DNA from: Acidobacterium sp.
GTDB taxonomy: Bacteria; Acidobacteriota; Terriglobia; Terriglobales; Acidobacteriaceae
Assembly (NCBI GenBank): GCA_027315385.1
Contig: DAHUYD010000037.1
Span: 1 to 33,722 of the forward strand
Direction of reading: 5' to 3'
Length of the DNA stretch: 33,722 nt
Positions 2,142 to 27,937 of the stretch are shown here, in pieces (position 1 is the first letter of the stretch; every line of letters begins with the position of its first letter). Under the pieces are notes generated by a model. That model was not told the DNA's origin and did not search any database. It was given only the letters and a program-made list of their open reading frames with translations. The position numbers were made by a program, and so were the translations under genes.

Positions 2142-3491
2142 CTAGTTGTCGCTGCTGCTTGCGGCGGCAGCGGCCTGGAGGGCCTGGTTGATGTCGAGGC
2201 GGCCATTGCCAATGAGGTCGGAGACGGAGACGGCGTGGGAGAGATTGTCCTTCATGTTTCCGAAGTCAGTCTGCGCCAGGAGCTGGTAAAGGAGCGCGGT
2301 GGCGCCGGTGACGAAGGGAGTGCTGAAAGAGGTACCGGAGACCTGGGCGTAGTTATTGCCGGGATAGGTGGTGATGATGTTCTCACCGGGCGCGCCGAGG
2401 AAGACGCCGTCGCCGTAGTTGGTGAATTTGCTGACCGTGTCCTGGAGCGAAGTGGAGGCGATGCCCATGACCTTGTCGAGGTTGGCGGGATTGGGCACCT
2501 GCGCGGCACCGGAGTTGCCGGCGGCGGCGATGCAGATGGAACCGGCGTTGTGGGCGTACTGGACGGCGTCGTTGAGTTCCTCAGAGGGCTGGAGAAGCGT
2601 GAAGCTCATGTTGATGATTTGCGCGCCGTGGTCCGCGGCGTAGTAGATGGCGCGGAGGATGTCAGAGAGCTGGGCGGTGCCGGCGGCGGTGAAGGCCTTG
2701 AGGGGCATGATTTTTGCGGTGGGGGCGACGAGGTGAATGACGCCGGCGACCATGGTGCCGTGGCCGAACTCGGCGGGGATCTGTCCGTCGAGGATGACTC
2801 CTGTGGACTGATCGAGAATCACGCCGGTGGATTGATCAAGGATGACGCCGGTGGACTGATTGAGGAGCGCGATGTCGGATTTGGATGCGGGGCTGGGATT
2901 GGAGGCCTGGAGAGCGCTCTGCGCGTTGGGGCCGAGTTCGCTCCAGTCGCTGGCCATGCCGGGGGTGTTGTGGATGAAGTCATAGCCGGAGACGAGGGAA
3001 GGCGCGAGGACGGTGCTGGTGGGGTCGACGCCGGTGTCAATGACGGCGACGGTGCCTGCGCCGGTGACTTGAAAGGCAGTCTGGGCGGTCCAGAGGTTGA
3101 CGATCTGTGCAGCAGGCTGCGTGAGGTAGCTGGCGAGCACGCTGGTGCCGGCGTAGGTGGTGGCGGTGGGGGGCGGAAGCTGATCGAGGATGACGCCGGT
3201 GGATTGTGTGAGTTCGGGCACGGCGGTGGGCTGGTCGGGCTCGATGTCGGTGACGTCGGTGTCAGAGCTGACGTCGGACTCGACCTGCGCAACGGGCACA
3301 CTGGCGGAGCCGGTGACGAGGTAGACAGAATCGGCGGTGTCAAGGGGCCGGACGACGGCGAGGTTGTGCCGCGCGGCAATGGTGGTGACGCTTGCAGTGG
3401 CAGCGGGGCGGAGGATGAAGGCTGTCTGCGCCTTTGCGGCAGAACCGAGTGCGAGTGCGATGAGGACGGCGGATAGCGTGGAAGACTTCAT
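2142..3491 (-). CDS. Secreted subtilisin-family (S8) protease with QSTGVILD repeats
   Basis: 449 residues from ATG 3491, with GAGGAG seven bases upstream; an in-frame ATG at 3533 has no such site. Residues 1-21 are a signal peptide (hydrophobic SAVLIALALG, then AKA before Gln). A prodomain-like region follows, then the S8 catalytic domain: Asp152 in VIDTGVD, His244 in FGHGTMVAG, oxyanion Asn326 in AAAGNSG, Ser388 in SGTSFSTPF. The catalytic set is complete, so it should be active in the periplasm or outside the cell. The octapeptide QSTGVILD occurs once in the prodomain region (96-103) and three times in tandem (212-235) between the catalytic Asp and His, an unusual place for an insertion. 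The C-terminus is Ala/Ser-rich with no evident anchor. It lies 93 bases after the anti-sigma-like gene, same strand. Confidence 0.93.
   Translation of the reverse strand: MKSSTLSAVLIALALGSAAKAQTAFILRPAATASVTTIAARHNLAVVRPLDTADSVYLVTGSASVPVAQVESDVSSDTDVTDIEPDQPTAVPELTQSTGVILDQLPPPTATTYAGTSVLASYLTQPAAQIVNLWTAQTAFQVTGAGTVAVIDTGVDPTSTVLAPSLVSGYDFIHNTPGMASDWSELGPNAQSALQASNPSPASKSDIALLNQSTGVILDQSTGVILDQSTGVILDGQIPAEFGHGTMVAGVIHLVAPTAKIMPLKAFTAAGTAQLSDILRAIYYAADHGAQIINMSFTLLQPSEELNDAVQYAHNAGSICIAAAGNSGAAQVPNPANLDKVMGIASTSLQDTVSKFTNYGDGVFLGAPGENIITTYPGNNYAQVSGTSFSTPFVTGATALLYQLLAQTDFGNMKDNLSHAVSVSDLIGNGRLDINQALQAAAAASSSDN
2787..2858 (-). repeat. Three tandem 24-nt units encoding QSTGVILD
   Basis: Units at 2835-2858, 2811-2834 and 2787-2810 each encode QSTGVILD (protein residues 212-235). 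Seven of the eight codons vary at the third base among the units and the distant fourth copy (CAG/CAA, ACC/ACA, GGC/GGA, GTC/GTG, ATC/ATT, CTT/CTC, GAT/GAC); the Ser codon is TCC in all. No difference changes an amino acid. The copies are therefore old relative to their divergence and look selected as peptide. Confidence 0.95.
3183..3206 (-). repeat. Fourth, isolated QSTGVILD copy
   Basis: A single 24-nt unit encodes QSTGVILD at residues 96-103, near the end of the presumed prodomain and about 50 residues before the catalytic Asp. It is followed by Gln, as are the first two tandem units. It differs from the tandem copies only by synonymous third bases. Confidence 0.93.
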
Positions 3492-3584
3492 GAGAAACTC
3501 CTCAGAATGAAGGGCTGCGAAGGCTGGGGACAAGCCATTTGCAGCGCAGGGAACAAGTAGAGGCCCTGTTTTGCGGCGGCAGCT

Positions 3585-4184
3585 CTATGGCTGCGTTTCA
3601 CCGTTGGGGTTGACACCAAGTTGCAGGCAGAGGGAGCTCTGCGGGAGGTACTTGAGGGTGAACTCTCCGAACTGGTTGGAGACAGTGCTGGCGATGATCT
3701 GATCGTTGGACACGAGGGTGACGGGCATGTGAGCGACCTGCCGGTCAGAGTCGGACGCGTGGTGGATCTGGCCGATCATGGAGACGGCGGGGGTGGTGCG
3801 CTCGTGTTCGAGGCGAAGGTCGATGGCGAATCCGTCGGCGTCGTAGAGGAGGTGACGCACGTCGAGGCGCTGCTCAGAGCGGACGCCCTGGAGTGCGGGC
3901 TGATGGAAGCTGTCAAAGACGAGCCGGGCGAGGATGCCGCGATGGACCTGAATCTGATCGAGGCCGCGCAGGGCAAAGATGGCGCGGGCGTTGTGAACGA
4001 CCTGGGCGGGAACATCGGATGTGCGCTCAAGAGCGGCTGCGGCGAGGGTTTTGGTGAGCCAGGCAGCGGTGGCGTTGCAGGTCGCGCACTGCTGGCGATG
4101 CGATTCCAAGGCAATGTTGCGGTCTCGATCGGCAAATCCGCGAAGATGATCGAGCCACTCGGTGATGTCGTAGTGTCTTTGCAC
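3585..4184 (-). CDS. Soluble zinc-binding anti-sigma-like protein with a beta-sandwich C-terminus
   Basis: 199 residues from GTG 4184, with AGAGG eight bases upstream. Residues 1-45 resemble the zf-HC2/ZAS anti-sigma domain: a helix ending LDHLRG, then H-x3-C-x2-C (HRQQCATC), then a hydrophobic helix NATAAWLTKTLAAAAL. I see no transmembrane segment, unlike most such anti-sigmas. Residues ~145-195 (GQIHHAS, MPVTLVSNDQIIASTVSNQFGEFTL, then LQLGV) look like a carboxypeptidase-regulatory-like beta-sandwich. It lies on the same strand as the ECF sigma factor but with the TPR-CHAT gene between them, so pairing with that sigma factor is inferred. A full-consensus ZAS would have an additional upstream His, which I cannot place with certainty. 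Confidence 0.7.
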   Translation of the reverse strand: MQRHYDITEWLDHLRGFADRDRNIALESHRQQCATCNATAAWLTKTLAAAALERTSDVPAQVVHNARAIFALRGLDQIQVHRGILARLVFDSFHQPALQGVRSEQRLDVRHLLYDADGFAIDLRLEHERTTPAVSMIGQIHHASDSDRQVAHMPVTLVSNDQIIASTVSNQFGEFTLKYLPQSSLCLQLGVNPNGETQP

Positions 4185-4220
4185 TTTCTACACCTCTTGG
4201 CAAGGATAGGTCCGTTGGAA

Positions 4221-4251
4221 CCGTTCTCCTCCATATAGAGCTAGGGAACGG
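4221..4251. promoter_or_regulatory. Imperfect dyad in the leader of the anti-sigma-like gene
   Basis: CCGTTC (4221-4226) and GAACGG (4246-4251) are exact inverted arms 19 bases apart, with extra partial pairing inside. The dyad lies just downstream of the predicted transcription start (about 4256, minus strand). It could be an operator or a leader stem. No family of DNA-binding protein can be assigned. Confidence 0.25.
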
Positions 4252-4263
4252 CGGCGGGGAATA

Positions 4264-4292
4264 AATATAGGGATCCTGAAAAAAACTGTCAG
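4264..4292 (-). promoter_or_regulatory. Sigma70-type promoter for the anti-sigma-like gene
   Basis: On the minus strand CTGACA (4292-4287), a 17-base spacer and TATATT (4269-4264) match the -35/-10 consensus at 5 of 6 positions each. The -35 box overlaps the TPR-CHAT stop codon. The predicted start near 4256 gives a leader of about 70 bases. It would let the anti-sigma-like gene, and perhaps the subtilase, be made independently of the upstream sigma-CHAT operon. Confidence 0.55.
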
Positions 4293-7243
4293 AATTTCGC
4301 TTTCTGGTCGCTTTCCGGCGTGGCGGCCAGGGGCATGACGGGGCTTTCCGCATCTCCGATGAGGACGAACGGCGCCCAGAAGGCGGGGTCAGGGTGCGCG
4401 GCGCGGATGGAGAGCATGGTGTTGCGCAGGGCGGCGGAGATGGACGGAGCCAGCATGAGCTCGCGGTAGAAGGATTTCATGAAGAGGGCGGTGACGGCGT
4501 CATTGACGTCCCAGAGGGAGACGAGGACGGCCTGGGCGCCGGCGTAGAGGAGTCCGCGGACGAGGCCGAGGATTTCATCGCCGCCGACGATGGCGTTGAG
4601 GCCGGTGCCGCAACCGCTGAGGGCGACGAGACGGGCGGAGAGACGGAGGCTGTAGAAATCGACGGGGTGGAGGTCGGTGTCGCCGAGCCGGATGGAGGAG
4701 AACATGGGGTTGTCGCGGCGGAAGAGGCCGTGGGTGGCGATGTGAATAAAGCGGCTCTGAGGGCCGGTCTGCCATAGGATGTCGCGGGTGGCGGTGCTGC
4801 CGAGGAAGAGGCGCGCGTCGGGGAGCGACTCGGCGACGGCGGCTGCCTCTTCGCGGATGGAGGGCGCGACGGCATCGGGGATGCCGAGGACGAGGGCGCG
4901 GCTGGAGTTGGCGGGCTGGGTCTTTCGGCACCAGGTGTAGACGCTGGCGCTGGGGGCGTAGGAGATGGTGAAGCGGTCAATGAGCGCGACGGGGGCATCG
5001 GGGGCGGAGCGATCGAGCAGGGCGTGGAAGGGCAGGGCGTGGAGACATGCGTGGGGAATGAGGATGAGGTGGTCGACGGTGGGAGGCAGATCGAGGGGCG
5101 CGATGAGGGCGGCATGGAGATCGGCGAGGTGCTGCGCGGTGGCGGCCTGCATGGCGCGCTGGAAGCGGCGCAGGTGGAGGGAGCCGAGCTCGTAGCGCGA
5201 GAGCTGGAACTGGAGGAGGCTGAGCGAGGGGCTGACCTTTTCGAGCGGGCAGAGGGGAACGACGCGCATCTTTCCGCGATGGAGCAGGGCGGCGTGGAGG
5301 AGGTCATTGCATTCGAAGTACTCGACGATGGCGGCGTTGGGGGCAAGGCTATCGAGGACCTGAGAGAGGGAAAGTGCGCCGGCGCTGAGCAGTGGCGAGA
5401 GGCGGCTGTGCTGGACAGGGGGCAGGCCGCGGGCGAGGGCAAGCTGGCGCTCATATTCGCCTGACTGCTCGCGATATTGGCGGATGCGGTCGACGGAGTC
5501 GCGTTCCGCGCGGAAGTCTGCGCGGACAGCCTGGCGATAGGTCATGGTCATGCGCAGGCGGAGGTCCTCGATGCGAAGGTCTTCAGGGAGGGTTTCAGCG
5601 CCCTGGGTGCGGAGGACCTGGGTGCCGAGGCTGATGAGATCGGCGAGGGAGCGGGATTTGGCGCGTTCGATGAAGGAGAAGACGGTCTCGTAGCGGGTCT
5701 CGGGCGGCTCGAATTGGAGGGCGAGCGCGGTGAGGCGGCGATAGATGGAGAGCTTGTCTTTGAGGAAGCCGATGCGGAAGGCTTCGCCGAGGATCTGGCT
5801 GCGGAGGTCTTCAAGGATGAGATTGGCGCGCTGGAGGCTGGCATAGGCGAGGGCGGTGAGGCCGAGGGTCTCCTGCCCGGCGCTGAGGACAGCGACGGCG
5901 TGGAACTCGATGGCGGGAGCGGGCGCGGTCTTGAGGCGCTGGAGTGCGCGCTGGCAGTAGAGGACAGCACGGGCGGGCCGGTTCTGTTCGAGGGCGATGC
6001 GTGCGAGGAGGATTTTGGCGAGGGCGGCCTTGGTCTGCAGGTTTGTGGGGATGAAGTTGCGGAGCGCGAGGCGCGCCAGGCGCGCGGCCTGATCGAGCCG
6101 GCCTTCTTCATGGAGGACGAGGGAGCGGTAAAAGTCGATGAGTCCGGGCCAGACATGATTGGATTCGGCGACGAAGATGGAGCGGGCCTGGGCGAAGAGG
6201 CTGAGGGCTTTGCGATGGTCGCCGATCTGGCTGGCGGCGATGGCGGAAAAGGCGATGGCCTTGGCCTTCTCGTAATTCATGGAGATGGCGTCAAAGCCCT
6301 TGTAGGCAGCCTCGGCGAGCTGCGCGCCTTCCTGCGACATGTTGAGCTCGAGATAGAGCTCGGCGAGGTCGAGATCGCAGAGGGCGAGATGGTAGCGATT
6401 GTTGAGGCGAGCGCAGAGCTGGCGGGCGGTCTGATAGAGCGCGATAGCTCGGGTGTATTCGCCGCGGAGGAAATGGAGATAGGCAACGTTGTAATCGGCC
6501 TCGGCGACGAGCAGCGGGAAGCCGTTGGCCTCGCAGGTTTCGCGGGCCTGGCGGTAGGTTTCCGCGGCGAGGTCGAAGTTGTTCATGGTGGTGTGGCAGA
6601 CGGCCATGTTGCGCAGCAGGACGGCGAGATCCTGCACGTCAGAAGAGGCTTCAATCTGCGGACGCGCGGACTGATAGAGGGTGAGCGCCTCACTGAGGCG
6701 GTCCTGGCGGTAGTAGGCATTGGCGAGATTGACGTCGAGCCGGGCGACGCGCAGCAGGTCATGGTGCGCGAGGAAGACGGCGCGCGCGGCGTGGGCCTGG
6801 GCGTAGGCTTCGTCGTAATGGCCGAGGTAGGCGAGGGGCTGAATCTGGTTCATGCGGGCACGGGCGGCCTGGATTTCGTCGCCAAGAGCTTCAAAGAGGG
6901 CGACGGCACTGCGATGGTGATGGAGCGCGGTGGGATGGTCGCCGGTAAGGAAGGCGACATGGCCCTGGGCGCGATGGGCGACGGCGCGGGATGGCTGGTG
7001 GTGGAGCGCGTCCGCGACGTGCGCGGCGGCGTGGGCGAGGCGGCCGGCGGCGCGGAGGTCGATGCGGGCGAAGGTGACGACGCCCTGGTAGAGCGCGTCG
7101 ACGAGCTCGACAGAGAAATCGGCGTGCTGCGCGGCGAGGGTGGCGATGCGGCGGGCTTCATCCTGCTCCTCAGCGAGTGCGGCAAGCCAGGGAAATCTAG
7201 ATGCGGCATCGGCGAGCGGCGCGGGCGAGGCTGGAGCGCTCAT
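4289..7243 (-). CDS. TPR-CHAT domain protein (caspase-like)
   Basis: 984 residues. The start ATG overlaps the ECF sigma stop (ATGA, 7243-7240). Residues ~60-480 are helical tetratricopeptide-like repeats (for example ALTLYQSARPQIEASSD, NFDLAAETYRQARETCEANG, EYTRAIALYQTARQLC). A charged helical linker spans ~490-620. Residues ~640-965 form a CHAT domain, a clan CD (caspase/separase-like) peptidase fold. The catalytic dyad is intact: His838 in HIATHGLF and Cys878 in LSGCGTG, followed by GDEILGLVRGLLYAGAQAVLVSLWDV, typical of the family. No signal peptide or membrane segment is seen, so it should be cytoplasmic. TPR-CHAT proteins are usually proteases switched on through their TPR partner-binding region. 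Coupling to a sigma factor suggests a role in controlling it, or being induced by it; this is inference. Confidence 0.92.
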   Translation of the reverse strand: MSAPASPAPLADAASRFPWLAALAEEQDEARRIATLAAQHADFSVELVDALYQGVVTFARIDLRAAGRLAHAAAHVADALHHQPSRAVAHRAQGHVAFLTGDHPTALHHHRSAVALFEALGDEIQAARARMNQIQPLAYLGHYDEAYAQAHAARAVFLAHHDLLRVARLDVNLANAYYRQDRLSEALTLYQSARPQIEASSDVQDLAVLLRNMAVCHTTMNNFDLAAETYRQARETCEANGFPLLVAEADYNVAYLHFLRGEYTRAIALYQTARQLCARLNNRYHLALCDLDLAELYLELNMSQEGAQLAEAAYKGFDAISMNYEKAKAIAFSAIAASQIGDHRKALSLFAQARSIFVAESNHVWPGLIDFYRSLVLHEEGRLDQAARLARLALRNFIPTNLQTKAALAKILLARIALEQNRPARAVLYCQRALQRLKTAPAPAIEFHAVAVLSAGQETLGLTALAYASLQRANLILEDLRSQILGEAFRIGFLKDKLSIYRRLTALALQFEPPETRYETVFSFIERAKSRSLADLISLGTQVLRTQGAETLPEDLRIEDLRLRMTMTYRQAVRADFRAERDSVDRIRQYREQSGEYERQLALARGLPPVQHSRLSPLLSAGALSLSQVLDSLAPNAAIVEYFECNDLLHAALLHRGKMRVVPLCPLEKVSPSLSLLQFQLSRYELGSLHLRRFQRAMQAATAQHLADLHAALIAPLDLPPTVDHLILIPHACLHALPFHALLDRSAPDAPVALIDRFTISYAPSASVYTWCRKTQPANSSRALVLGIPDAVAPSIREEAAAVAESLPDARLFLGSTATRDILWQTGPQSRFIHIATHGLFRRDNPMFSSIRLGDTDLHPVDFYSLRLSARLVALSGCGTGLNAIVGGDEILGLVRGLLYAGAQAVLVSLWDVNDAVTALFMKSFYRELMLAPSISAALRNTMLSIRAAHPDPAFWAPFVLIGDAESPVMPLAATPESDQKAKF

Positions 7244-7884
7244 TGAAAGCCTGTCTCGGCAAGCAGCCTGCGCAGGCGTTCGAGACAGCGTCCGCGGATG
7301 AAGCCGATGGAGCCGGTGGCGAGCCCGAGGCGGCGTGCGACATCCGCGTAGGGCAGTGCCTCATCCCCGTAGAAGAGCATGCGAATGAGCGTGGCACAGC
7401 GGCCGGAGAGCCTGTCGACGGATTCCCGGAGGGCCTGCTGGAGCTCGATCTGCACGAGCTGCTCGGAGGCGAGCGGCGCGGCGTCCATGACTTCAATGGG
7501 CGGCTGCCCGTCGTCCTGCGAGTCGAGAGGCAGATCGTTGCGGATGCGCATCTGCTTCCAGCGGAGCGACTGGTGGGAGGCAACAGTGAGCAGCCAGGAG
7601 CGGAGAGACTCGACTTTGCGCAGATCAGCGAGCTTGGAAAAGAGCTCGACGCAGACCTGCTGAAAGATGTCGGCAGCGTCCTGCGGCTGCGCGCCGTAGC
7701 GCATGGGCACGCTGTAGATCATGCGCTGGTACTTGGCGATCAGGGCGGTCCATGCATCGGCGTCGCCGTCGAGACAGGCGCGCACCAGGCGGGTATCGTC
7801 CCATGAGGGCGAGGGCGCAGTGAGCCGTGTATGGACGCGGCGGGCAGCGGCGGGCAGCTTCGGGTTGGCGGTTTCCTCGGTCAA
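7240..7884 (-). CDS. ECF-type RNA polymerase sigma factor
   Basis: 214 residues. Region 2 spans about 28-112 (TRLVRACLDGDADAWTALIAKYQRMIY, then DAADIFQQVCVELFSKL, then LRSWLLTVASHQSLRWKQ). Region 4 spans about 158-210 (LSGRCATLIRMLFYGDEALPYADVARRLGLATGSIGFIRGRCLERLRRLL). Such factors redirect RNA polymerase to a small regulon. The start is a TTG at 7884, overlapping the stop of the peptide-binding protein (TTGA), so translation is probably coupled. AAGGGA lies only two bases before it, closer than ideal, and no better in-frame start precedes region 2. It is sandwiched between an ABC importer and TPR-CHAT, both overlapping. I found no convincing ECF-type AAC/GTC promoter motif in front of the operon. 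Confidence 0.9.
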   Translation of the reverse strand: MTEETANPKLPAAARRVHTRLTAPSPSWDDTRLVRACLDGDADAWTALIAKYQRMIYSVPMRYGAQPQDAADIFQQVCVELFSKLADLRKVESLRSWLLTVASHQSLRWKQMRIRNDLPLDSQDDGQPPIEVMDAAPLASEQLVQIELQQALRESVDRLSGRCATLIRMLFYGDEALPYADVARRLGLATGSIGFIRGRCLERLRRLLAETGFQ

Positions 7885-9638
7885 GGTCCCTTGCGCCAGT
7901 AGAAAGAAGCAATGTTATCAAGCATTCCCGGGTCCAGGGGCCCCGGAGCGGCGCCTGCCAGCGGAGCGCGCACGGCGGCGAGCATGTTGGGCGAGACGAG
8001 CGAGAGGAACGGGAGCTGCGCGGCGTAGATTGACTGGATGCGGAAGTAGGCCGCGCGTCTTTGACGGAAATCGGTGAGGGTCATCTGCTGCCGCATGAGG
8101 CTGTCGATCTCGGCTTCCCATGGTGTGGCGGGCTGGGCTTCGCCCTGATTCCAGAGGTGGAGGTTGCCGCTGGAGAGCCAGAGGCTCATGTTGCCGTTGG
8201 GGTCAGTGTCTCCGGCGCTGAGAGCCATGACGGCCAGGTCATAGTCGTGGGACTGGGTGATGCGCTGGAGGAAGCTGCGGAATTCGAGGGGGACGACCGA
8301 GGCATCGATGCCGAGCGCGGCGAAGTTGTGTGCGAGCAGGGTGGCGATGCCGGACTGGGCGCGGTTGCTGGAGGTTGCGATGATGGTGAAGCGGACGGGA
8401 TTGCCGTCGCGATCATAGAGCGCCGCGCCGCGCCAGCGGAATCCGGCGTCGGCGAGCAACCGGCGGGCGCTAGGCAGGTCGAGCGCGGTGGGGCGCAGGG
8501 CGGGATTGGCCCACTGACCGCTGGCCGGCGTGACGGGCGAGGCGAGCGGGACGGCGTGATCCTGAAAGACGAGATGGACGAGAGCTGCACGATCGACGGC
8601 GAGAGAGAGCGCCTGACGAAAGGGCTGCTGGAGGAACCAGGTCTGCGTGTGAGCGGCCTGCGGAAGATGGGCGGCGAGATCGGCGTTGAGGTTGAAGAGG
8701 AGCAGATCGAATTCGAGTCCGGGCCCCCCGTCAAGCTCACGGATGAGATTGGAGCTGGAGAGCTTTTGCAGGGAGGAGTAGGTGTCCGCGGTGAGGCGCG
8801 AGATGAGGTCGAGCTGGCCGGCGGTGAAGCGAATGGCTTCAGCGTCCTGATTGGATGCGAAGGAAAAATCGACCTCATCGAGATACGGGAGTGGGCGACT
8901 GCCGGCGTCCTGCTTCCAGTAATACGGATTGCGCTCCAGGACGAGGGACTGTCCGGGGCGGTAGCTGCGGAGGCGGAACGGACCGAGGCCGACGAGCTGC
9001 GCGGGGGGAGTGACGAGGGTCCAGGCATTGGCGAGGGTGCCGGCCTGCAGGAGCGGCTGCAGCAGATGACTGGGCAGGATGGCGATGCCGTCAAAGAGTC
9101 GTGCGGCGGCGGCGTAGGGACGGGGCAGGTCGAAGCGGACGAGATCGGGGCCAAGCCTGGTGACGCGGATCGGCCGACCGTCGATGATGAGCAGATCGCG
9201 CTGAGGCGCGTTCAGTTTGGGATCGAGATAGACACGAAAGGAAAACAGCACGTCGTCGGCGGTGAAGGGCGAGCCGTCAGAGAATCGTACGCCGTGGCGC
9301 AGATGAAGCAGGTAGGACTGCCCGTCGCGGCCGACCTGCCAGGAGCTGGCGAGCGCGGGCTCGACGGCATCGGTGGCGCGATTGATGTGGAGCAGATCGG
9401 CGTTGAGGATGGAGGTGACCGTGCGCGAGGCGCTGTCAGTGGCGAAGACGGGATTGAGGGTGCGGGGTTCAGCACGGAGCGATGCGCTGAGATGGCCGCC
9501 GGGAGCGCCGCGGAGCGAGGAGATGCGCAACGCCTGAGGGCACGCGGGCAGCGCGAGCGCAGCACTGAAAGCGAATGCAGCGAGAAACAGAGCGACGCGC
9601 GCGGAGGGGAGAGATGGGAAAACGAACGCGGCTTTCAC
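7881..9638 (-). CDS. Periplasmic peptide-binding protein of an ABC importer
   Basis: 585 residues, SBP family 5 (OppA/DppA/YejA-like), from GTG 9638 with AAGGA five bases upstream. The signal sequence lies in residues 1-36 (basic start, then VALFLAAFAFSAALALPAC). The Cys could be lipidated, but Pro two residues before it makes a weak lipobox. Family features: RTLNPVFATDSASRTV, then LRHGVRFSDGSPFTADDVLFSF, GLGPFRLRSYRPGQSLVLERNPYYWK, and the late PFRQALSLAVDRAALV. It should bind oligopeptides in the periplasm and deliver them to the two permeases encoded just upstream (10-base gap). Its 3' end overlaps the sigma-factor start, which is unusual for a nutrient importer. Confidence 0.93.
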   Translation of the reverse strand: MKAAFVFPSLPSARVALFLAAFAFSAALALPACPQALRISSLRGAPGGHLSASLRAEPRTLNPVFATDSASRTVTSILNADLLHINRATDAVEPALASSWQVGRDGQSYLLHLRHGVRFSDGSPFTADDVLFSFRVYLDPKLNAPQRDLLIIDGRPIRVTRLGPDLVRFDLPRPYAAAARLFDGIAILPSHLLQPLLQAGTLANAWTLVTPPAQLVGLGPFRLRSYRPGQSLVLERNPYYWKQDAGSRPLPYLDEVDFSFASNQDAEAIRFTAGQLDLISRLTADTYSSLQKLSSSNLIRELDGGPGLEFDLLLFNLNADLAAHLPQAAHTQTWFLQQPFRQALSLAVDRAALVHLVFQDHAVPLASPVTPASGQWANPALRPTALDLPSARRLLADAGFRWRGAALYDRDGNPVRFTIIATSSNRAQSGIATLLAHNFAALGIDASVVPLEFRSFLQRITQSHDYDLAVMALSAGDTDPNGNMSLWLSSGNLHLWNQGEAQPATPWEAEIDSLMRQQMTLTDFRQRRAAYFRIQSIYAAQLPFLSLVSPNMLAAVRAPLAGAAPGPLDPGMLDNIASFYWRKGP

Positions 9639-9648
9639 GGTGGTCCTT

Positions 9649-10704
9649 CTAACGAGGCAACTTATACCAGTGACGCGAAAGGGAAGGCAACGTAAGCGGG
9701 CGAAGGGAACCGGCGCGATCGGCGAGGACGTGTACAGAGAAGAAAAAGGGAATCATTGTCCAGATGGGAGAGATGAGCCATGGATATTCAACGAATGTTG
9801 ACAAATGCTGCGCGGCGGTGAGCATGACGCCCCAACTGACGAGAGGTTCAGTGACGCCGAGGCCGAGATAGGAGAGCGCAACCTCACTGGCGATGAACTG
9901 GGGCAGCAGGACGGTGAACTGGGTGATGGCCTGCGGTGCGAGGTCGGGGAGAGTGTGCCAGCGCGCGATCTGCCAGGGTGAGGCACCCGTGGCCCGCGCC
10001 ATGGTGACGTAGGCGCGCTGGTGCGCGGCGATGGTGACGCCGCGGAGGATTCTGGCGGGACGCGCCCAGCCGATGGCGGCCATGAGGGCGGTGCTGGCGG
10101 CCACAGCGACCCAGGGCGAGACGCGCAGAGGCAGCAAGGCGCGCACGGCGAGTAGCAGATAGAACCATGGGACGGAGATCATGGTCTCCACGAGGCGCAT
10201 GAGGAGAGTGTCAAGCCAGGGCGCGGCGGACCCGGCGATGAGACCGACGGCAAGAGCGAGGAGCGAGGCCGCGAGCGATGCGGTGAGGCCGATGGCGAGG
10301 GTGGTGCGTCCGCCGTAGAGGAGGCGGGACCAGACGTCGCGGCCGAACTCGTCTGTGCCAAGGAAGTGAGGCGCGCCGCCGCTGATGCCGCAGAGATGGA
10401 GGCTGCCTGGGGATGCGTCGACGGTGGTGTCTGCAGAGGCCGTGGTGACGAAGAACTTCAGCGGTATGAATGCCGCGCCCCGCCGGGTGTAGACGGCGAA
10501 CTGGCCGGGGACGGGCTGCGGCCGCACGAGATAGGGACGCAGATGGAATTGTCCGGCGGGCGATGTGAAGCGAATGCCTTCAGGCGGCAGATACGGGAGC
10601 GAGGCGTCGATGGCCGCCGGGTCCGCAGTGGCGAAGAAGCCCGCGAAGGCGAAGAGCGCGGAGTAGAGGACTAGGAAGATGAGGGCGGCGCGGGGGAGCG
10701 TCAT
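9649..10704 (-). CDS. Peptide ABC transporter permease (DppC/YejE-like)
   Basis: 351 residues from ATG 10704, which overlaps the preceding permease stop (ATGA). Longer in-frame N-termini are Arg/Pro-rich translations of that gene and are not real. A first membrane segment (residues ~5-25) is followed by a periplasmic stretch of ~90 residues (to HFLGTDEFGRDVWSRLLYGG, the conserved motif of this subunit). Four or five further membrane segments carry the EAA-type loop near ARATGASPWQIARWHTLPD. The long periplasmic stretch resembles YejE rather than DppC. It pairs with the other permease to form the channel. Confidence 0.9.
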   Translation of the reverse strand: MTLPRAALIFLVLYSALFAFAGFFATADPAAIDASLPYLPPEGIRFTSPAGQFHLRPYLVRPQPVPGQFAVYTRRGAAFIPLKFFVTTASADTTVDASPGSLHLCGISGGAPHFLGTDEFGRDVWSRLLYGGRTTLAIGLTASLAASLLALAVGLIAGSAAPWLDTLLMRLVETMISVPWFYLLLAVRALLPLRVSPWVAVAASTALMAAIGWARPARILRGVTIAAHQRAYVTMARATGASPWQIARWHTLPDLAPQAITQFTVLLPQFIASEVALSYLGLGVTEPLVSWGVMLTAAQHLSTFVEYPWLISPIWTMIPFFFSVHVLADRAGSLRPLTLPSLSRHWYKLPR

Positions 10705-11651
10705 GATGCGGCCTCGCGCAGGCGGGGATCGTGAAGCCAGAGAAGCAGGTCCGCGAGGAGGTTGCCGAGGATGAGCAGGAGCGCGGAGCAGAAGACGCCG
10801 GCGACGACGACATTGGTATCGCGCATGAGGATGGCGTTGAGCAGAAGCTGACCGAGGCCGGGCCATCCGAAGAGAACTTCAACAAACAACGATGCGCTGA
10901 GCAGCGAGCCGATGCCGAGACCGAAGAGCGAGATGAGGGGATTGGCGGCCTCAGGCAGGATGTAACGGAAGAGTACGATGCGCGGCGGCAGGCCATGCAT
11001 GTGCGCGGCTTCAACAGCGGGCGCGTGCTGCGCCGCATCAAAGCCGCCCTGCAGATGGCGCAGCACGAGGGGCAAATAACCAAGCGCCATGGCCAAGGCG
11101 GGGAGCGCGAGCTGGCGGACGAAATTGCTCCACTGCGTCCATGAGGCGGTTGGGCTGGTTGTGCCGATGGGCAGAGGCGCGAGGGCGTGCAGGCGCAGCG
11201 CGGTCCAGAGCAGGAGAAAGGCGAGGACGGGATCGGGGATGGACCAGAGAAGTGAAGCGAAGAGGCGCACGAGCGCGGCGGGCCGACCGCGCAGTGTGCT
11301 GAGAAGAAGACCGAGAAGCCATGCGCCGCACAGCCCCGCGCCGCTGAGCAGCAGCGTGTTTGCGATGCGCTCTGCGAGTAAGGCACGGACGGGCATGTGA
11401 TAGGCGAGGGACTGGCCGAAGTCGCCGTGAAGCGCGGATGCGCACCAGAGCGCGTAACGACGGACGATGGGAGAGCGGGGATCGGCCTGCTGCTGGATGG
11501 ACCGCAGGGTTTGCGGCGAAAGGCCGGGCTCAAGGCGCAGGGTGGTGAAGTAGTCGCCGGGCGCGGCACGCAGGAGCGCGAAGCAGAGCAGCGAGACAGC
11601 CAGGAGCGAGCCGAGCGAGTGAGCGAGACGTGTTGCCAGAGAGGAGATCAT
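10701..11651 (-). CDS. Peptide ABC transporter permease (DppB/YejB-like)
   Basis: 316 residues from ATG 11651, overlapping the ATPase stop (ATGA). It has the family start (RLAHSLGSLLAVSLLCFALLRAAPGDYF), a periplasmic part with HGDFGQSLAYHMPV, and five further membrane segments. The coupling loop lies near AHMHGLPPRIVLFRYILPEA, followed by EVLFGWPGLGQLLLNAI, a hallmark of BPD_transp_1 peptide permeases. With the next gene it forms the heterodimeric channel of a peptide importer. Confidence 0.9.
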   Translation of the reverse strand: MISSLATRLAHSLGSLLAVSLLCFALLRAAPGDYFTTLRLEPGLSPQTLRSIQQQADPRSPIVRRYALWCASALHGDFGQSLAYHMPVRALLAERIANTLLLSGAGLCGAWLLGLLLSTLRGRPAALVRLFASLLWSIPDPVLAFLLLWTALRLHALAPLPIGTTSPTASWTQWSNFVRQLALPALAMALGYLPLVLRHLQGGFDAAQHAPAVEAAHMHGLPPRIVLFRYILPEAANPLISLFGLGIGSLLSASLFVEVLFGWPGLGQLLLNAILMRDTNVVVAGVFCSALLLILGNLLADLLLWLHDPRLREAAS

Positions 11652-13186
11652 GGCCCTCCGGGTTCCGGCAGGATGGCATGAAGAAGCTGCAAGGCGGCGG
11701 GGTGCTCTGCGAGGCGCGCGAAATCCGCGGCGGGATGGCACTCGACGATATGGCCCTGGTGCAGGAGAGCGATGCGATCAGCGGAGCGGAGGAAGCGGCC
11801 GAGGTCATGGGTGAAGTGGATGCAGGCGACATGCATCTGCGCGCGGAGCCGGTCAAGCAGCTCGAGGATGGAGTCCTGCAGTGCGCGATCGAGGCCGGCG
11901 AGTGCTTCATCGAGCAAGAGCAGCGAAGGCTGCAGCATGAGGGCGCGGGCTATGGCGACACGCTGGCGCTCACCACCGCTGAGCTGCGGCGGGCGGCGCG
12001 TGAGACAGGTGGCGGGGAGCGTGACGGCCGCGAACATCTGCCGGATGCGCTCTGCGACATTGCGCGGCGTGCCGCGGTTGCGGGCGTGGATACGGAGCGG
12101 TTCAGCAAGGATCTCTGCGATGGTGAGGCGCGGGTTGAGGGCGCCGACTGTGTCCTGCAGGACGAGCTGTATCTGCGCGCGGGACGCGAGGGAGCGAGGC
12201 GGATCGAGAGACGCGCCGGCGAAGAGGATCTCACCGGAATAGCGGGATTCAATTCCCGCAAGACAGCGCGCGAGTGTGGACTTGCCGGAGCCGGATGCGC
12301 CGACGATGGCAAGAGACTCGCCGGGCGCGAGACTGAGGCTCACCTGGCGCAGGATGGGCGTGGTGCGCACGGTGTGCGGCCAGAGGCGATGGGTGGCGTG
12401 TGCGAACCGCAGATGGCGCACCTGCAGCAGTGGTGCAGCCTGGCTGTGACCGGCGAGCGCCGGCGGCGCGGGACGCGATGCGTGCGAAGGCACGTAGTCC
12501 GCGAGGGCGCCGGCTTGGAGGCTGAGGATGCGGTCGGCGATGGCAGCGAGCAGGGCTGGATCGTGACTGACGATGAGCATGGCGGTGCGGCGCAGCGCGC
12601 GCATACGGAGCAGCAGATCGAGGATGTGGCGCTGGGTGACGGTATCGAGCGCGGAAGAGGGCTCGTCTGCGAGGAGCAGCGATGGTTGCACAGCGAGTGC
12701 CTGCGCGATGGCGACACGCTGGGCCTCTCCCCCACTTAACTGATGCGGGTAAGCCGCGGCAGTGCATTCGGGATCGCTGAAGCCCGCGCCGGCGAGAGCA
12801 TGAAGCAGATCGGCGCGTGTCGTGGCGCGGGGCAACATATCTCGCAACTGCGAGCGCACGCGGCGAAAGGGGCTGAGCCTGCCGGCCGGATCCTGAAAGA
12901 TGAAGCCCATGCGGCGAAAGCGAAGCGTGCGCCTCTCTGACATCGACATGGCGAGGAGATCGCGGTCTTCAAAGCGAAGCGCGGCGCAGCGGATGCGAGC
13001 AGCGGGCGCAGGCACGCCGAGGATGCAGCGCAGGAGAGAGGTTTTGCCGCAGCCGCTGGGGCCAAGGAGGCCGACGATCTCGCCCGGCTCCATCGACAGG
13101 CTTGCGCTTTGCAGAACAGGGACAGTGCCTTCGCGGGTTGGACCGTAATCGAGGGACAGATCCTGAACGGAAAGCAAGGGCGTCAT
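11648..13186 (-). CDS. Fused two-domain peptide ABC ATPase (DppDF/YejF-like)
   Basis: 512 residues from ATG 13186. Two complete nucleotide-binding domains are fused. NBD1 has Walker A GPSGCGKT, signature LSGGE and Walker B LLLADEPSSALD. NBD2 has Walker A GASGSGKST, signature LSGGE and Walker B LLLLDEALAGLD followed by an H-loop His in HFTHD. It powers the importer encoded by the next three genes, an arrangement like yejABEF, whose product imports peptides. There is no Shine-Dalgarno sequence before ATG 13186, but a TACAAT box lies seven bases upstream, so the message may be leaderless. In-frame ATGs at 13219 and 13249 would add short Arg/Cys-rich tails and are less likely. It is the first gene of the long minus-strand set. 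Confidence 0.92.
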   Translation of the reverse strand: MTPLLSVQDLSLDYGPTREGTVPVLQSASLSMEPGEIVGLLGPSGCGKTSLLRCILGVPAPAARIRCAALRFEDRDLLAMSMSERRTLRFRRMGFIFQDPAGRLSPFRRVRSQLRDMLPRATTRADLLHALAGAGFSDPECTAAAYPHQLSGGEAQRVAIAQALAVQPSLLLADEPSSALDTVTQRHILDLLLRMRALRRTAMLIVSHDPALLAAIADRILSLQAGALADYVPSHASRPAPPALAGHSQAAPLLQVRHLRFAHATHRLWPHTVRTTPILRQVSLSLAPGESLAIVGASGSGKSTLARCLAGIESRYSGEILFAGASLDPPRSLASRAQIQLVLQDTVGALNPRLTIAEILAEPLRIHARNRGTPRNVAERIRQMFAAVTLPATCLTRRPPQLSGGERQRVAIARALMLQPSLLLLDEALAGLDRALQDSILELLDRLRAQMHVACIHFTHDLGRFLRSADRIALLHQGHIVECHPAADFARLAEHPAALQLLHAILPEPGGP

Positions 13187-13255: not shown

Positions 13256-13284
13256 TTTACGGAAAAGAGTGCCCTGCCTATATT
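13256..13284 (+). promoter_or_regulatory. Sigma70-type promoter of the glycan cluster
   Basis: TTTACG (13256-13261), a 17-base spacer and TATATT (13279-13284) match consensus at 4 and 5 of 6 positions. The expected start, about 13291, gives a leader of ~35 bases ending in AAGGAG (13315-13320), five bases before the ATG at 13326. Confidence 0.5.
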
Positions 13285-13325
13285 TTCCGCGCCGCAGTGC
13301 GCCCTATAGCCAGTAAGGAGACGAT

Positions 13326-14633
13326 ATGCGAGCGCGAGCGATGTTGTATTGCCAGCATCTGGCAGGAATCGGGCACTTGATTCGCAGCACGGAACTGGCG
13401 CGCGCATTGGGCACGGATGGATGGGATGTGCTGCTGGTAGTTGGCGGCGATGTGCCGCGCGACTTCATGTTTCCGTCGGCGGTGAAGGTGGAGCAGCTTG
13501 AAGCGCTGCGATCCGATCCGGAGTACAAGACGCTGTCAACGTGCGGGGATGAGCACAGTCTGAATGAAACCAAGGTACGCCGCACGGTGCGACTGCTGGC
13601 GTTGTTCGATGCCTTTGCGCCAGATGCGCTGATTACGGAGATGTATCCGTTTGGCCGCAAGAAGTTTGGATTTGAATTGCTGCCGCTGCTGGAACGCGCA
13701 CGGAATGCAGAGCACCGGCCGCTGATCGCAGCAAGCGTGCGAGACATTCTGGTGCGCAAGCGGGACCAGGAAGCGCACGAGCGGCGCGTGCTTAAGATCG
13801 TGAATCACTTTTACGATGTGGTGCTTGTGCACTCCGATGAATTGATGCAGCCGTTGCAGGCTACGTTCGGTCTAGCGGCGGAGCTTCGTCCGGCGGTGAT
13901 GCACACGGGCTATGTAGTTGCGGATGAGCGCGGCGGGCAGGCGGAGTCGCTGGATGCCGCGGCGCGGATGTTTGTGGAGCGGGAGCTGGGCGGCGAGGAG
14001 TTCATCGTGGTGAGCTGCGGCAGCGGAAGGCTCCATGCGGGCCAGCAACTGACCTTTGCGGCGCTTGAAGCGGCGCCGGCAGTGTGCGGGCGCTTCCCGC
14101 ACCGGATTCTGATCTGCGCGGGTCCGCTGGCGCCGGCGGATGTATATGCGCGATACGAAGGCATGGCCGCGGGGATGGACCGCGTGCGCCTGGTGCACGA
14201 TCTCCCCTTTTTGCGCAAGCTGCTGGAGCGGGCTGTGCTTTCAGTGAGCCTGGGGGGATACAACACGGTGATGGAACTGCAGGCGGCGCGGACGCAGGCG
14301 CTGGTCCATGCGGCGGAGCCGAACGGCGACACCGAACAGAGGATGCGCGTGGAAAGCCTTGCGGGGAAGGGGCAAATCCGCGCGCTCGATACCTGGGATC
14401 TGCTGAATGGGCGTCTTGCAGGGCGCATTGAAGAGGCGCTGGGCGATCCGCTGCCGGTGGCGGCGCCGCAGATGGACGGCGCGAAGACAAGCGCGCAGAT
14501 TCTGAAGCTGCTGCACCGGAAGCGCCGCGCGGCGGCGGTGCTGGCGGGCACGATGCCTCGCGAGAGGAGAGCGGTGACGGCGCGGAACGAGGCACCGTCG
14601 CGCCGCGCGGAGGGCCGGACGTTATGCGCCTGA
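13326..14633 (+). CDS. MurG-like (COG4671-type) glycosyltransferase, first paralog
   Basis: 435 residues from ATG 13326, with AAGGAG five bases upstream. GT-B fold. The N-terminal half opens with MLYCQHLAGIGHLIRSTELARAL, the glycine-loop entry of MurG-like enzymes. The C-terminal half has FIVVSCGSGRLHAGQQL and SLGGYNTVMELQAARTQALV, the usual sugar-nucleotide-binding region (GGYNT then E). No membrane segment or signal is visible; it should act at the cytoplasmic face of the inner membrane. The last ~40 residues are Arg/Ala-rich and probably disordered. It is similar in layout to the next gene, which overlaps it by 10 bases, so the two may act in sequence or as a complex. The donor and acceptor are unknown. 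Confidence 0.82.
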   Translation: MRARAMLYCQHLAGIGHLIRSTELARALGTDGWDVLLVVGGDVPRDFMFPSAVKVEQLEALRSDPEYKTLSTCGDEHSLNETKVRRTVRLLALFDAFAPDALITEMYPFGRKKFGFELLPLLERARNAEHRPLIAASVRDILVRKRDQEAHERRVLKIVNHFYDVVLVHSDELMQPLQATFGLAAELRPAVMHTGYVVADERGGQAESLDAAARMFVERELGGEEFIVVSCGSGRLHAGQQLTFAALEAAPAVCGRFPHRILICAGPLAPADVYARYEGMAAGMDRVRLVHDLPFLRKLLERAVLSVSLGGYNTVMELQAARTQALVHAAEPNGDTEQRMRVESLAGKGQIRALDTWDLLNGRLAGRIEEALGDPLPVAAPQMDGAKTSAQILKLLHRKRRAAAVLAGTMPRERRAVTARNEAPSRRAEGRTLCA

Positions 14634-15889
14634 TGGTTTACTCGCACGATACGTTTGGGCTGGGCAATATTCGGCGCATGCTGGCGATCTGCCACCACTT
14701 GCATGCGACGGTCGAAGATTTGTCGATCCTGATTGTGTCCGGGTCGCCGATGCTGCAGAGCTTTCGCGTGGCCGAGGGAATCGACTACATCAAGCTGCCG
14801 TGCCTGAAGCGGTCAGATACGGGTGAGCTGGGCGTTAAGTTTCTGCCGATGGAGGCCGATGAGGTGATTCGGCTGCGGCGGGAGCTGCTGCTCTCGACCG
14901 TCCTCTCGTTTCGCCCAGACGTGATTCTGGTGGACAAGAAGCCGGATGGACTGGCGGGCGAACTGGAGCCGGCGCTGCGGCACGTGCGCTGTGCGCTGCC
15001 GGAGACGCACGTGAGCCTGGTGCTGCGCGACATTCTGGATGCGCCGGCGAAGACGACGGAAGAGTGGACGAAGCGCGGCTACAACAACGTGCTGCACTGG
15101 TACTACGACAGCATCCTGGTGCTTGGCTCGCAAGGCGTTTTCGATGTGTGCGCGGAGTACCGGATTCCGCCTGCGATCTGCAGGAAGGTGATGTACTGCG
15201 GCTACGTGGCGCGCCATGAGGCGCTTGAAGACAGCGCGAAGCTGCGCGCGGAGCTGGGCGTGAGAAGCGGAGCCGCCCTGGTGCTGGCGACGGCGGGCGG
15301 CGGCGAGGATGGGTTTGCGCTGATGCTGCGGAGCATGGAAGCCGCGCGCAGACTGCACACTGAGCGCGGCGCGCACATGGTGGTGGTGGCGGGACCGGAG
15401 CTGCCGTCCGCGCAACGCAAGCGCCTGAGCACAGCGGCCGCGAATGCGCCGTACACGCGCGTGCTCGAGTTTGTGCCGGACATGATGAGCTACATGCATG
15501 CGGCGGACGTGGTGATCTCGATGGGCGGATACAACACCGTGTGCGAGCTGGCGACGCTGAACAAGCGCGCGGTGATGGTGCCGCGCACGGCGCCGGTGAT
15601 GGAGCAACTGATTCGCATGGAGCGCATGGCTGAATATGGGCCGTATGTTGCGCTCTCTCCGCATGGGCTGCGAGCCGACGCGGTGGCGGACGCGGTGCTG
15701 ACGCAACTGGACGATGCGCACCGGCATGGCCGCAGCGAATGGCGACTGGACATGGGCGCATTGCCGCGGATCGCGCGCCTTATTCGCCAGATCGGCGGAC
15801 GGATATCCGCACAAGAGATGCAAATGCCACAGGCGAGGCTGCCGGAGTGGGAAGTCGGCGAACCGTTTGTGGACGCAGCTGCTTCATAG
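14624..15889 (+). CDS. MurG-like (COG4671-type) glycosyltransferase, second paralog
   Basis: 421 residues from ATG 14624, inside the previous gene's end. It opens with MRLMVYSHDTFGLGNIRRMLAI, a variant of the glycine-loop entry, followed by SILIVSGSPMLQSF and RPDVILVDKKPDG. The C-terminal half holds LVLATAGGGEDGFAL, MVVVAGPELP and DVVISMGGYNTVCELATLNKRAVMVPR, the same GGYNT...E donor-binding motif as its neighbour. The two are therefore paralogs that have diverged. No membrane segment is seen. Role: probably addition of one sugar to a lipid-linked or surface glycan exported by the ABC protein two genes on. Confidence 0.82.
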   Translation: MRLMVYSHDTFGLGNIRRMLAICHHLHATVEDLSILIVSGSPMLQSFRVAEGIDYIKLPCLKRSDTGELGVKFLPMEADEVIRLRRELLLSTVLSFRPDVILVDKKPDGLAGELEPALRHVRCALPETHVSLVLRDILDAPAKTTEEWTKRGYNNVLHWYYDSILVLGSQGVFDVCAEYRIPPAICRKVMYCGYVARHEALEDSAKLRAELGVRSGAALVLATAGGGEDGFALMLRSMEAARRLHTERGAHMVVVAGPELPSAQRKRLSTAAANAPYTRVLEFVPDMMSYMHAADVVISMGGYNTVCELATLNKRAVMVPRTAPVMEQLIRMERMAEYGPYVALSPHGLRADAVADAVLTQLDDAHRHGRSEWRLDMGALPRIARLIRQIGGRISAQEMQMPQARLPEWEVGEPFVDAAAS

Positions 15890-15913
15890 CGCTTTCATCC
15901 GGGCGCGCAACAA

Positions 15914-15946
15914 CCGGACTTCAAAACTACCCGGCTTCAAATCAAC
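15914..15946 (+). repeat. Short imperfect direct repeat between glycosyltransferase genes
   Basis: CCGGACTTCAAAACTAC (15914-15930) is followed at once by CCGGCTTCAAATCAAC (15931-15946), alike apart from one inserted base and two substitutions. A third fragment, AGGCTTCGTGAC, follows at 15947-15958. It occupies most of the 84-base gap, the longest within this cluster. It may be a leader element for the downstream genes or leftover slippage. Confidence 0.3.
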
Positions 15947-15973
15947 AGGCTTCGTGACTGAGGAAGAGCTTCT

Positions 15974-20284: not shown

Positions 20285-21303
20285 GAGTTCTGGTGACGGG
20301 AGCGGCGGGTTTTGTGGGGTATCACACGGCGCAGCGGCTGCTGAAGGATGGCCATGTGGTGTTTGGCCTGGACAATTTGAATGACTACTACGCGGTGGAG
20401 CTGAAGCGAGCGCGGCTGGCGCAACTGGAGCAGCATAGCCGCTTCCTGTTTGAGCGCACGGAACTGGCCGATGGGGGCGCGGTGCGACAACTGGTGGAAC
20501 GCGCCAGGCCGGAGTGCGTGGTGCATCTGGCGGCACAGGCGGGGGTGCGCTACTCGATGGAGAATCCCGGCGCGTATGTGGAGAGCAACCTTGCGGGATT
20601 TGTAAACCTGCTGGAAGCGTGCGCGCATGGCGCCGATGTGCGGCATTTTCTTTATGCGTCGTCGAGCTCAGTGTACGGGGCCAATACGGCGATTCCCTTC
20701 CGGACAGCGGATGCGGTGGATTGTCCGATCTCCCTTTATGCGGCGACGAAGCGCGCCAATGAGCTGATGGCGCACACGTACAGCCATCTATATGGGCTGC
20801 CGGTTACGGGGATGCGGTTCTTTACGGTGTATGGGCCGTGGGGCCGGCCGGACATGGCGTACTACAAGTTTGCCGATGCGATTCTTGCGGGGCGGCCGAT
20901 CAAGGTCTACAACCACGGGGCGATGCGGCGCGACTTTACGTATGTGGACGACGTGGTGGAAGCGATCGTGAGGCTGCTGCCGCTGGCGCCTGAGACGCCG
21001 CTGTTCGAGTCGAGCGGCGGGACGCTGTTGAGCAACGCGCGGAGCCGCGTGATCAACATCGGGAACAACCGGCCGGAAGAACTGCTGCATTTCATTGAAG
21101 TGCTGGAGGCGAGCCTTGGGAAGCGCGCGCTGCGGGAATACCTGCCGATGCAGGCGGGGGATGTGCCGGAGACGTATGCGTGCATGGATGAGCTGATGGA
21201 GCTGACAGGCTACCGGCCATCGATTTGCCTGAAAGAAGGCATTGAACGATTCGCGTGGTGGTATCTGGACTATCACCGGGCGCCGGCAGAGCGAATTGCA
21301 TGA
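20281..21303 (+). CDS. NAD-dependent epimerase, UDP-glucuronate 4-epimerase-like
   Basis: 340 residues from ATG 20281 (ATGA overlap with the phosphatase stop). An earlier in-frame ATG at 20140 lies within the phosphatase gene and is not the start. Extended SDR: NAD-binding TGAAGFVG at residues 7-14, GLDNLNDYYAVELKRARL, VHLAAQAGVRYSMENP, catalytic Ser in ASSSSVYG and Tyr-x3-Lys in YAATK, then RFFTVYGPWGRPDMAYYKF and RRDFTYVDDVVEAI. These are hallmarks of UDP-glucuronate/galacturonate 4-epimerases (CapI type). It would supply UDP-galacturonate to the glycosyltransferases upstream. UDP-glucose 4-epimerase activity is the main alternative. Confidence 0.88.
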   Translation: MRVLVTGAAGFVGYHTAQRLLKDGHVVFGLDNLNDYYAVELKRARLAQLEQHSRFLFERTELADGGAVRQLVERARPECVVHLAAQAGVRYSMENPGAYVESNLAGFVNLLEACAHGADVRHFLYASSSSVYGANTAIPFRTADAVDCPISLYAATKRANELMAHTYSHLYGLPVTGMRFFTVYGPWGRPDMAYYKFADAILAGRPIKVYNHGAMRRDFTYVDDVVEAIVRLLPLAPETPLFESSGGTLLSNARSRVINIGNNRPEELLHFIEVLEASLGKRALREYLPMQAGDVPETYACMDELMELTGYRPSICLKEGIERFAWWYLDYHRAPAERIA

Positions 21304-24179: not shown

Positions 24180-25430
<1,251 letters not shown>

Positions 25431-26468: not shown

Positions 26469-26469
26469 T

Positions 26470-26499: not shown

Positions 26500-26534
26500 G
26501 GCTCTGAAAAGGGCCAGAAAAGCTGCTCATTGCC

Positions 26535-27926: not shown

Positions 27927-27937
27927 GGAGAAGGCGC

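Follow-up and report, generated by a model that had tools for sequence, protein, structure and literature searches.

The window analysed here, a whole stretch of 33,722 nucleotides, is one contig (DAHUYD010000037.1) of the 3.75 Mb genome of an Acidobacterium sp. Its minus strand carries, from 13186 to 2142, a cluster of eight genes in which a subtilase with a repeated octapeptide lies close to a protein of tetratricopeptide repeats (TPRs) and a CHAT domain. In gene order these are an ATPase with two ATP-binding cassette (ABC) domains by Pfam (11648–13186; the ATG at 13186 is present in the sequence), an ABC permease (10701–11651; Pfam), an OppC/NikC-like ABC permease (9649–10704; profile matches), a solute-binding protein of family 5 (SBP5; 7881–9638; PF00496 at 1.3e-75), an extracytoplasmic function (ECF)-type sigma factor (7240–7884; Sigma70_r2 at 3.7e-10, region 4 being assigned from size and position only), the TPR-CHAT protein (4289–7243), a putative anti-sigma protein resembling zinc-binding anti-sigma factors (ZAS-like; 3585–4184) and a secreted subtilase of peptidase family S8 (2142–3491; Pfam S8 at 1.9e-35). 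The original prediction had described eight minus-strand genes with coupling overlaps, and all of them are present. Four-base overlaps join the ATPase to the first permease and the two permeases to each other, with starts set at ATG 11651 and ATG 10704, and further four-base overlaps join SBP5 to the sigma factor and the sigma factor to TPR-CHAT. For the subtilase, ATG 3491 is a better start than TTG 3533, the first of the open reading frame, because it opens a signal-peptide-like stretch. The cluster probably forms two transcription units, since a promoter-like motif sits in the gap between CHAT and ZAS (4242–4270).

The subtilase of the window has 449 amino acids. Foldseek matches to pro-subtilisins point to a prodomain architecture, and the catalytic triad D152/H244/S388 is invariant in 50 sequences. 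The octapeptide QSTGVILD occurs in it four times, with one copy in the linker between the prodomain and the catalytic domain (3183–3206) and three in tandem in a loop between the catalytic Asp and His (2835–2858, 2811–2834 and 2787–2810). In the AlphaFold2 model, which has a mean pLDDT of 88.9, the copies (residues 96–103 and 212–235) fall in stretches of about 53–75 and the rest is confident. No QSTGVILD-like sequence was found elsewhere in the genome, which is 91% complete, and the four matches of a degenerate pattern are all in the subtilase. The original prediction did not mention these octapeptides, which are the most telling feature of the cluster.

Relatives carry other octamers at the same two places, for example QSTGAILD, QRTVAVLD, QSTVAFLD, QSTTSILD, QHTAAMLD and PYTTAILD. 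At least two octamer copies are present in 161 of the 184 unique S8 proteins of the loci; all copies are identical in 135 of these 161, and copies agree on average at 98% of their residues. Where a degenerate residue is the same in two copies, the codon is also the same at a frequency of 0.493; the codon usage of each protein would predict 0.414. In 111 of 1875 serine pairs one copy uses TCN and the other AGY. Because the codons are near random where the residues are identical, the copies are mostly not recent DNA duplicates and the peptide is kept by selection; chance repetition and recent DNA duplication were both rejected on this evidence. The octamer differs between lineages, and 68 distinct octamers are listed over all loci, of which a few may be mis-registered and two were re-registered by hand. 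Four spurious repeat calls (AAAGGTVN, RAAEAKLE, SIIINDLS and TLTSLTVN) were removed from later repeat counts. A position relative to the catalytic residues could be assigned to 370 of 571 copies: 70 precede the catalytic Asp, those at the prodomain junction included, 300 fall between Asp and His, and none comes later.

Several subtilases of the wider set have unusual forms. One (L042, 9331–10797) carries a nonapeptide repeat, GGETILPLD, of very different sequence and before the catalytic Asp only, another type of peptide in the same slot. The subtilase frame at 5862–7667 of L126 combines coiled-coil-like repeats with a pair of QKTVIFID at the prodomain junction, and adjoins ECF, ZAS and CHAT genes. 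The clusters of L086, L166 and L168 contain subtilase open frames of about 1000–1270 residues, followed by GT28, GT4 and ABC exporter genes. Repeats of the QSTASVLN type, in up to 19 copies, occur in L044–L050, which come from one genus (genomes G042, G046, G048 and G049); two of these genomes have such subtilases on more than one contig, and each genome has a system-type CHAT elsewhere.

In the TPR-CHAT protein the TPRs are N-terminal and the CHAT domain follows, with a His/Cys dyad (H838/C878) present in at least 90% of 44 sequences. The protein also has an asparagine ladder, N172/N212/N252/D292. Foldseek matches of its model (m6769cbde2e46) include the transmembrane anti-sigma factor DdvA.

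The identity of the octapeptide covaries with helix A of the TPR superhelix. Across 72 loci, 14.4% of the columns in TPR helix A exceed r = 0.2 against peptide identity, compared with 0.4–2.8% in the other parts (the rest of CHAT, S8, SBP5, ECF, ZAS and a permease); for S8 columns outside the repeats the figure is 1.9%. The residues of TPR-CHAT that covary with the octapeptide are 98, 135, 205, 207, 211, 245, 249 and 285. When the test was repeated on 53 further loci, which remained of 74 candidates after filtering at 90% identity, helix A held 15 of the 20 highest-ranking columns, and the helix A covariation survives redundancy cuts of 55–80% and the use of one locus per peptide. Whole-protein partial Mantel tests on the 35 loci with all proteins implicated TPR, SBP5 and ECF alike, and were superseded by the site-wise test.

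Loci with duplicated genes show the same association. Tandem subtilase paralogues that share one CHAT, both bearing repeats and 47–67% identical to each other, have the same octamer in 12 of 12 pairs, some of which come from related loci; subtilases of different loci at 50–70% identity have the same octamer in 37 of 169 cases. The paralogues in L060 and L063 all carry QSTTSILD and both of those in L064 carry QSTAGILD, with varied codons and the same two-residue change in both paralogues. Two genomes of one genus, G459 and G452, have two adjoining CHAT genes, and behind each stands a separate subtilase with a distinct octamer, QSTVSLLN or QSTVALLN for the one and QSTVAFLD for the other. By sequence and by fold the TPRs match Rap and NprR, among other proteins. 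Judged from these sequence comparisons, recognition of the octapeptide by the TPRs of TPR-CHAT is highly probable.

Conservation of the cluster was examined in two sets of loci. The subtilase-seeded set consists of 80 named, profile-annotated loci; seven duplicate loci were left out of parts of the analysis. The order ATPase-ATPase-permease-permease-SBP5-ECF-CHAT-ZAS-S8 recurs, whole or in part, in many of them and spans records titled Acidobacteriaceae, Bryobacterales, Vicinamibacteria and Thermoanaerobaculia. This recurrence in many loci confirms that the eight-gene cluster is real and more than chance. The CHAT-seeded set was chosen without regard to S8, by a CHAT search across 399 genomes of the class. 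CHAT was found at E 1e-200 or better in 95 of these genomes, and 95 stretches around CHAT places were taken, some of which overlap on one contig (L175/L243 and L176/L242); the remaining places were already in the set or were fragments. Synteny was counted in the 60 CHAT-centred loci whose flanks reach 6.8 kb or more upstream and 3 kb or more downstream. Of these, 56 have an ECF gene, 58 a ZAS-like gene, 57 a subtilase, 47 SBP5 and 45 both SBP5 and a permease; ECF, ZAS, S8, SBP5 and ATPase all stand on one strand in 41. The S8 protein has at least two octamers in 54 of the 60 loci, 53 of them sound (the TLTSLTVN repeat of L227 is spurious).

These counts bear out the expectation of a conserved neighbourhood in the original prediction, which had placed importer, ECF, TPR-CHAT, ZAS and subtilase in one circuit; the linkage is conserved, and the control of the sigma factor by proteolysis is a part of that claim that we still infer. 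Free separation of the parts, the opposite outcome, was not the pattern found. Octapeptide-type subtilases without an adjoining CHAT occur in nine genomes; in seven of these a system-type CHAT is encoded at another place, in two of the seven as a fragment at a contig end. Six such separate CHAT loci were scanned: SBP5 lies beside CHAT in four, ECF in four, and both in three. No plasmid copy of the system was found, as none of 151 matching plasmid records covers 80% of the CHAT protein.

A crude hydropathy test distinguishes the products of the cluster. Hydrophobic N-termini were found in 78 of 94 S8 and 37 of 43 SBP5 proteins, and in none of 62 CHAT, none of 51 ECF and three of 68 ZAS proteins. 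Stretches of transmembrane length occur in no ZAS (n = 68), no ECF (n = 51) and four of 62 CHAT proteins. This pattern suggests that the precursor would leave the cell and that receptor, anti-sigma and sigma would stay inside, with an importer encoded in between. The cargo of that importer may be oligopeptides: the PDB matches of SBP5 include the oligopeptide binder AppA (1xoc, 7.9e-30) and also NikA (2.3e-26), and the importer ATPase of one related locus (L207) has the oligopeptide/dipeptide C-terminal domain oligo_HPY. The ZAS-like protein has a zinc motif, H-x3-C-x2-C (HRQQCATC in the window), a C-terminal beta-type domain and no transmembrane stretch. H29, C33 and C36 are nearly invariant in 30 sequences, some of which have H-x4-C spacing. 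The window protein matches no Pfam zinc-finger family; at E ≤ 0.1 it matches CarboxypepD_reg only (0.095), and among 30 relatives zf-HC2 is matched by 10 and CarboxypepD_reg by nine.

The gap between CHAT and ZAS contains a conserved bipartite motif, CCTATATTTTT-N-CCCTTA, and the best k-mer pair in the gap occurs in 46 loci, against four in one shuffle. In the window, k-mers, a regular expression and a genome pattern search all point to CTATATTT-N16-CCCTA upstream of ZAS-S8 (minus strand, 4242–4270). The pattern CTATATTT-N13..16-CCCTW has two matches in the window's own genome and none for its reversed control. Both matches are in this cluster; the second, on the plus strand at 13278–13306, precedes a divergent operon. 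The strict pattern was matched in seven of 12 genomes searched. The motif and its two genomic sites are supported by these results, and the motif is a candidate target of this ECF sigma factor. The k-mer test showed no shared motif upstream of S8 by itself or of the ATPase genes. Several loci have a position weight matrix (PWM) site upstream of the importer operon, and in L207, L213, L215, L216 and L221 a strong second site (24–36) is upstream of a small gene and of the importer operon itself. When 11 loci with non-standard S8 were scanned at a score of at least 16, a site before ZAS was found in two (L039, 17.8; L050, 23.0). Further sites, with scores of 20–29 among them, lie upstream of genes with no relation to the system (inositol monophosphatase, XdhC, histidine kinase and ferredoxin-type) and are unexplained or due to chance.

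The divergent operon (13326–21303, plus strand; profile matches) is a candidate output of the system. It encodes a 435-amino-acid protein with no family match that by eye resembles a GT28-type glycosyltransferase, a second protein, which has a GT28 C-terminal domain, a GT4 glycosyltransferase, an MsbA-like ABC exporter, a histidine phosphatase and an NAD epimerase. In two relatives, L281 (motif score 19.6) and L279 (23.7), this operon is again the neighbour of the cluster, and more distant GT28-GT4-ABC sets adjoin the cluster in L086, L129, L166 and L168, three of them with weak motif scores of 13–15. Directly after the glyco-export operon, at 21255–24149 on the plus strand, is a large outer membrane protein of the OMP_b-brl_4 family with an N-terminal CarboxypepD_reg domain, and a homologue occupies the same place in L279 and L281. 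Elsewhere in the window, positions 1–2000, just downstream of the subtilase, encode a PadR regulator with a weakly HAAS-like protein, and ribosome recycling factor. Positions 24180–30562 hold a probable hexuronate catabolism cluster (esterase, GntR/FCD regulator, UxaC glucuronate isomerase, major facilitator superfamily transporter and UxaE tagaturonate epimerase).

These features are consistent with a complete peptide-signalling circuit, a reading to which we give somewhat better than even odds. The secreted subtilase would be both protease and precursor, bearing lineage-specific octapeptide copies in flexible loops, and after export the copies would be cut out by the subtilase itself or by another protease. 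The octapeptide would enter the cytoplasm through the SBP5-ABC importer, which is encoded in the same operon, and may there occupy the groove of the TPR-CHAT superhelix, aligned with the asparagine ladder. Binding would switch the caspase-like CHAT domain, either on or off, and CHAT would cleave or otherwise disable the ZAS anti-sigma protein and so free the ECF sigma factor. The freed sigma factor would transcribe ZAS and subtilase, as feedback, and in this genome the divergent glycosyltransferase/ABC-export operon. A further step is to regard the cluster as a "pherotype" system, in which hypervariable octapeptides and a co-evolving TPR-CHAT groove would make an ECF regulon for glycoconjugates, exported or at the surface, respond to kin only; for this the chances appear evenly balanced.

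A number of observations weigh against the circuit. Fewer than two copies are present in 23 of the 184 S8 proteins, some being single-copy and deep branches having none. The "concave" residue set was picked after the first ranking, and the replication used it unchanged, but the further loci are still relatives; its residues were positioned by helix offset, not from inspected coordinates. When just the height of the ten best scores is considered, the first set is only weakly above the nulls (p 0.016–0.073). SBP5 columns above r = 0.2 are at background (1.9%), though its ten best rank next after helix A, and its whole-protein distances do correlate with the peptide. The TPRs match designed TPRs, LGN and kinesin light chain better than Rap. 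The ATPase of the window scores above the NCBIfam NikE cut-off (349.3 against 332.55 bits), which leaves room for import of other cargo, such as nickel. SBP5 is not nearby in 13 of the 60 CHAT-centred loci, and the ZAS proteins of L094 and L125 are without the cysteines. The distribution of the cluster is patchy, as the subtilase was found in one of 11 genomes of the same genus and CHAT in the 95 of 399 genomes of the class. Several results on the promoter motif also count against it. A regular expression finds the bipartite motif in 57 of 98 ZAS upstream regions. The strict pattern is absent from G002, G312 and G670, all of which carry the system, and has one match in G003, where no system CHAT was found; reversed-control matches occur in G131 (one) and G670 (two). 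PWM scores reach 21 in shuffled loci (three matches at 16–21 in 20 shuffled loci), so that weaker sites mean little.

The main rival to this circuit, which we consider unlikely, requires neither release nor import of a peptide. TPR-CHAT would read the octapeptides while they are still part of cytoplasmic subtilase precursor that has not been exported; a failure of secretion or of the envelope would cause the precursor to build up, CHAT would be switched, and an ECF response would follow. Such a sensor accounts for the TPR covariation, for the identical copies and for a cytosolic receptor with no import, and multiple copies could be read on one chain. However, the importer belongs regularly to the locus (SBP5 and permease in 45 of 60) and SBP5 accompanies CHAT in four of the six split loci, and abutting 8-mers would leave little space for several superhelices on each chain. 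Alternatively, the repeats may serve the subtilase only, as maturation linkers or self-inhibitory mimics of substrate, with TPR-CHAT and ECF sensing protease activity or substrates. Such a role would suit the placement of the 370 mapped copies, of which 70 precede Asp, some at the prodomain junction, 300 stand between it and His and none comes later, but S8 columns outside the repeats covary little in comparison with TPR helix A (1.9% against 14.4%), and in loci with two systems the octamer tracks the CHAT gene. We regard this explanation as improbable.

Very improbable, in our estimate, is that an ordinary nutrient or nickel importer stands beside an unrelated stress ECF module in a neighbourhood inherited without functional coupling. 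The NikE-like score of the ATPase and the 13 loci with no SBP5 nearby are in its favour, whereas the four-base overlaps from SBP through ECF to CHAT, the recurrence of the order in many loci and in records of several classes, and the presence of SBP5 with CHAT in four of six split loci, with ECF too in three, are against it.

The bare gene neighbourhood is already known in part, as it overlaps the context of the sigma factor group ECF54. The original prediction had held that no described system has this combination. A review reports that genes for carboxypeptidase, subtilase and CHAT domains surround ECF54 members and suggests that these sigma factors are controlled by proteolysis with no anti-sigma factor involved (PMC8999054), so that the claim goes a little too far; the available part of that review, where the context appears as a neighbour list only, mentions no peptide repeats, importer or receptor. 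As described there, ECF54 has no anti-sigma factor, whereas the cluster has a ZAS-like putative one, and the listed model member is from Geodermatophilus. What is new is the octapeptide code in the subtilase, matched to the TPRs of the CHAT protein. In the literature covered, with subscription papers and preprints outside that coverage, no paper was found that joins "CHAT domain", "ECF sigma factor" and "subtilase", and none with this peptide code; our searches also found no described peptide signalling in Acidobacteriota.

Quorum-sensing receptors of the RRNPPA group (Rap, NprR, PlcR, PrgX, Rgg, AimR) read imported peptides with TPRs, and some of the precursors contain tandem peptides, according to the accessible part of PMC11343458; the surveys, in the portions available, treat Firmicutes/Bacillota (PMC9765709, PMC10075063). 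The cluster resembles them, as there described, in its short peptide, proposed TPR superhelix receptor and putative oligopeptide-type importer, and in the several copies of some precursors. It differs in that the output of the receptor would be a CHAT protease and an ECF sigma factor instead of helix-turn-helix (HTH) or phosphatase control, and TPR-CHAT has no HTH or Rap-type N-terminal effector. There is no small propeptide gene, the peptide being located in the 449-residue subtilase, and the hosts are Acidobacteriota.

A top fold match of TPR-CHAT is Csx29, the TPR-CHAT protease of Craspase (type III-E CASP), which according to the accessible text of PMC10028731 cleaves Csx30, an ECF inhibitor. 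Both systems have a TPR-CHAT with a His/Cys dyad beside an ECF sigma factor, which in Craspase is CASP-sigma, and by analogy the action of Csx29 on a sigma inhibitor is a precedent for the proposed step from CHAT to ZAS. Craspase is activated by RNA via Cas7-11, whereas the cluster has a peptide code and an importer, and Pfam finds no Cas7-11 among its eight genes. Yeast pheromone precursors also are secreted proteins from which several short peptides are cut. Unlike them, and unlike fungal KEX2-processed repeat proteins, of which one secreted precursor yields several short peptides (accessible part of PMC9769878), the precursor in the cluster is bacterial and is itself a protease.

If the import step is true, the system would work like RRNPPA. 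Signalling by peptides in the manner of RRNPP would then reach the Gram-negative Acidobacteriota, a major soil phylum, by a route previously undescribed for these bacteria, and the pherotype reading would cover many of them. The comparisons made here supply, from sequence, a proposed receptor with predicted specificity residues and 68 candidate octamers. The circuit, if true, would also provide a physiological role for TPR-CHAT proteases outside CRISPR systems, and the pherotype reading would make it the first peptide code, for quorum sensing or kin recognition, in which precursor and receptor are both proteases.

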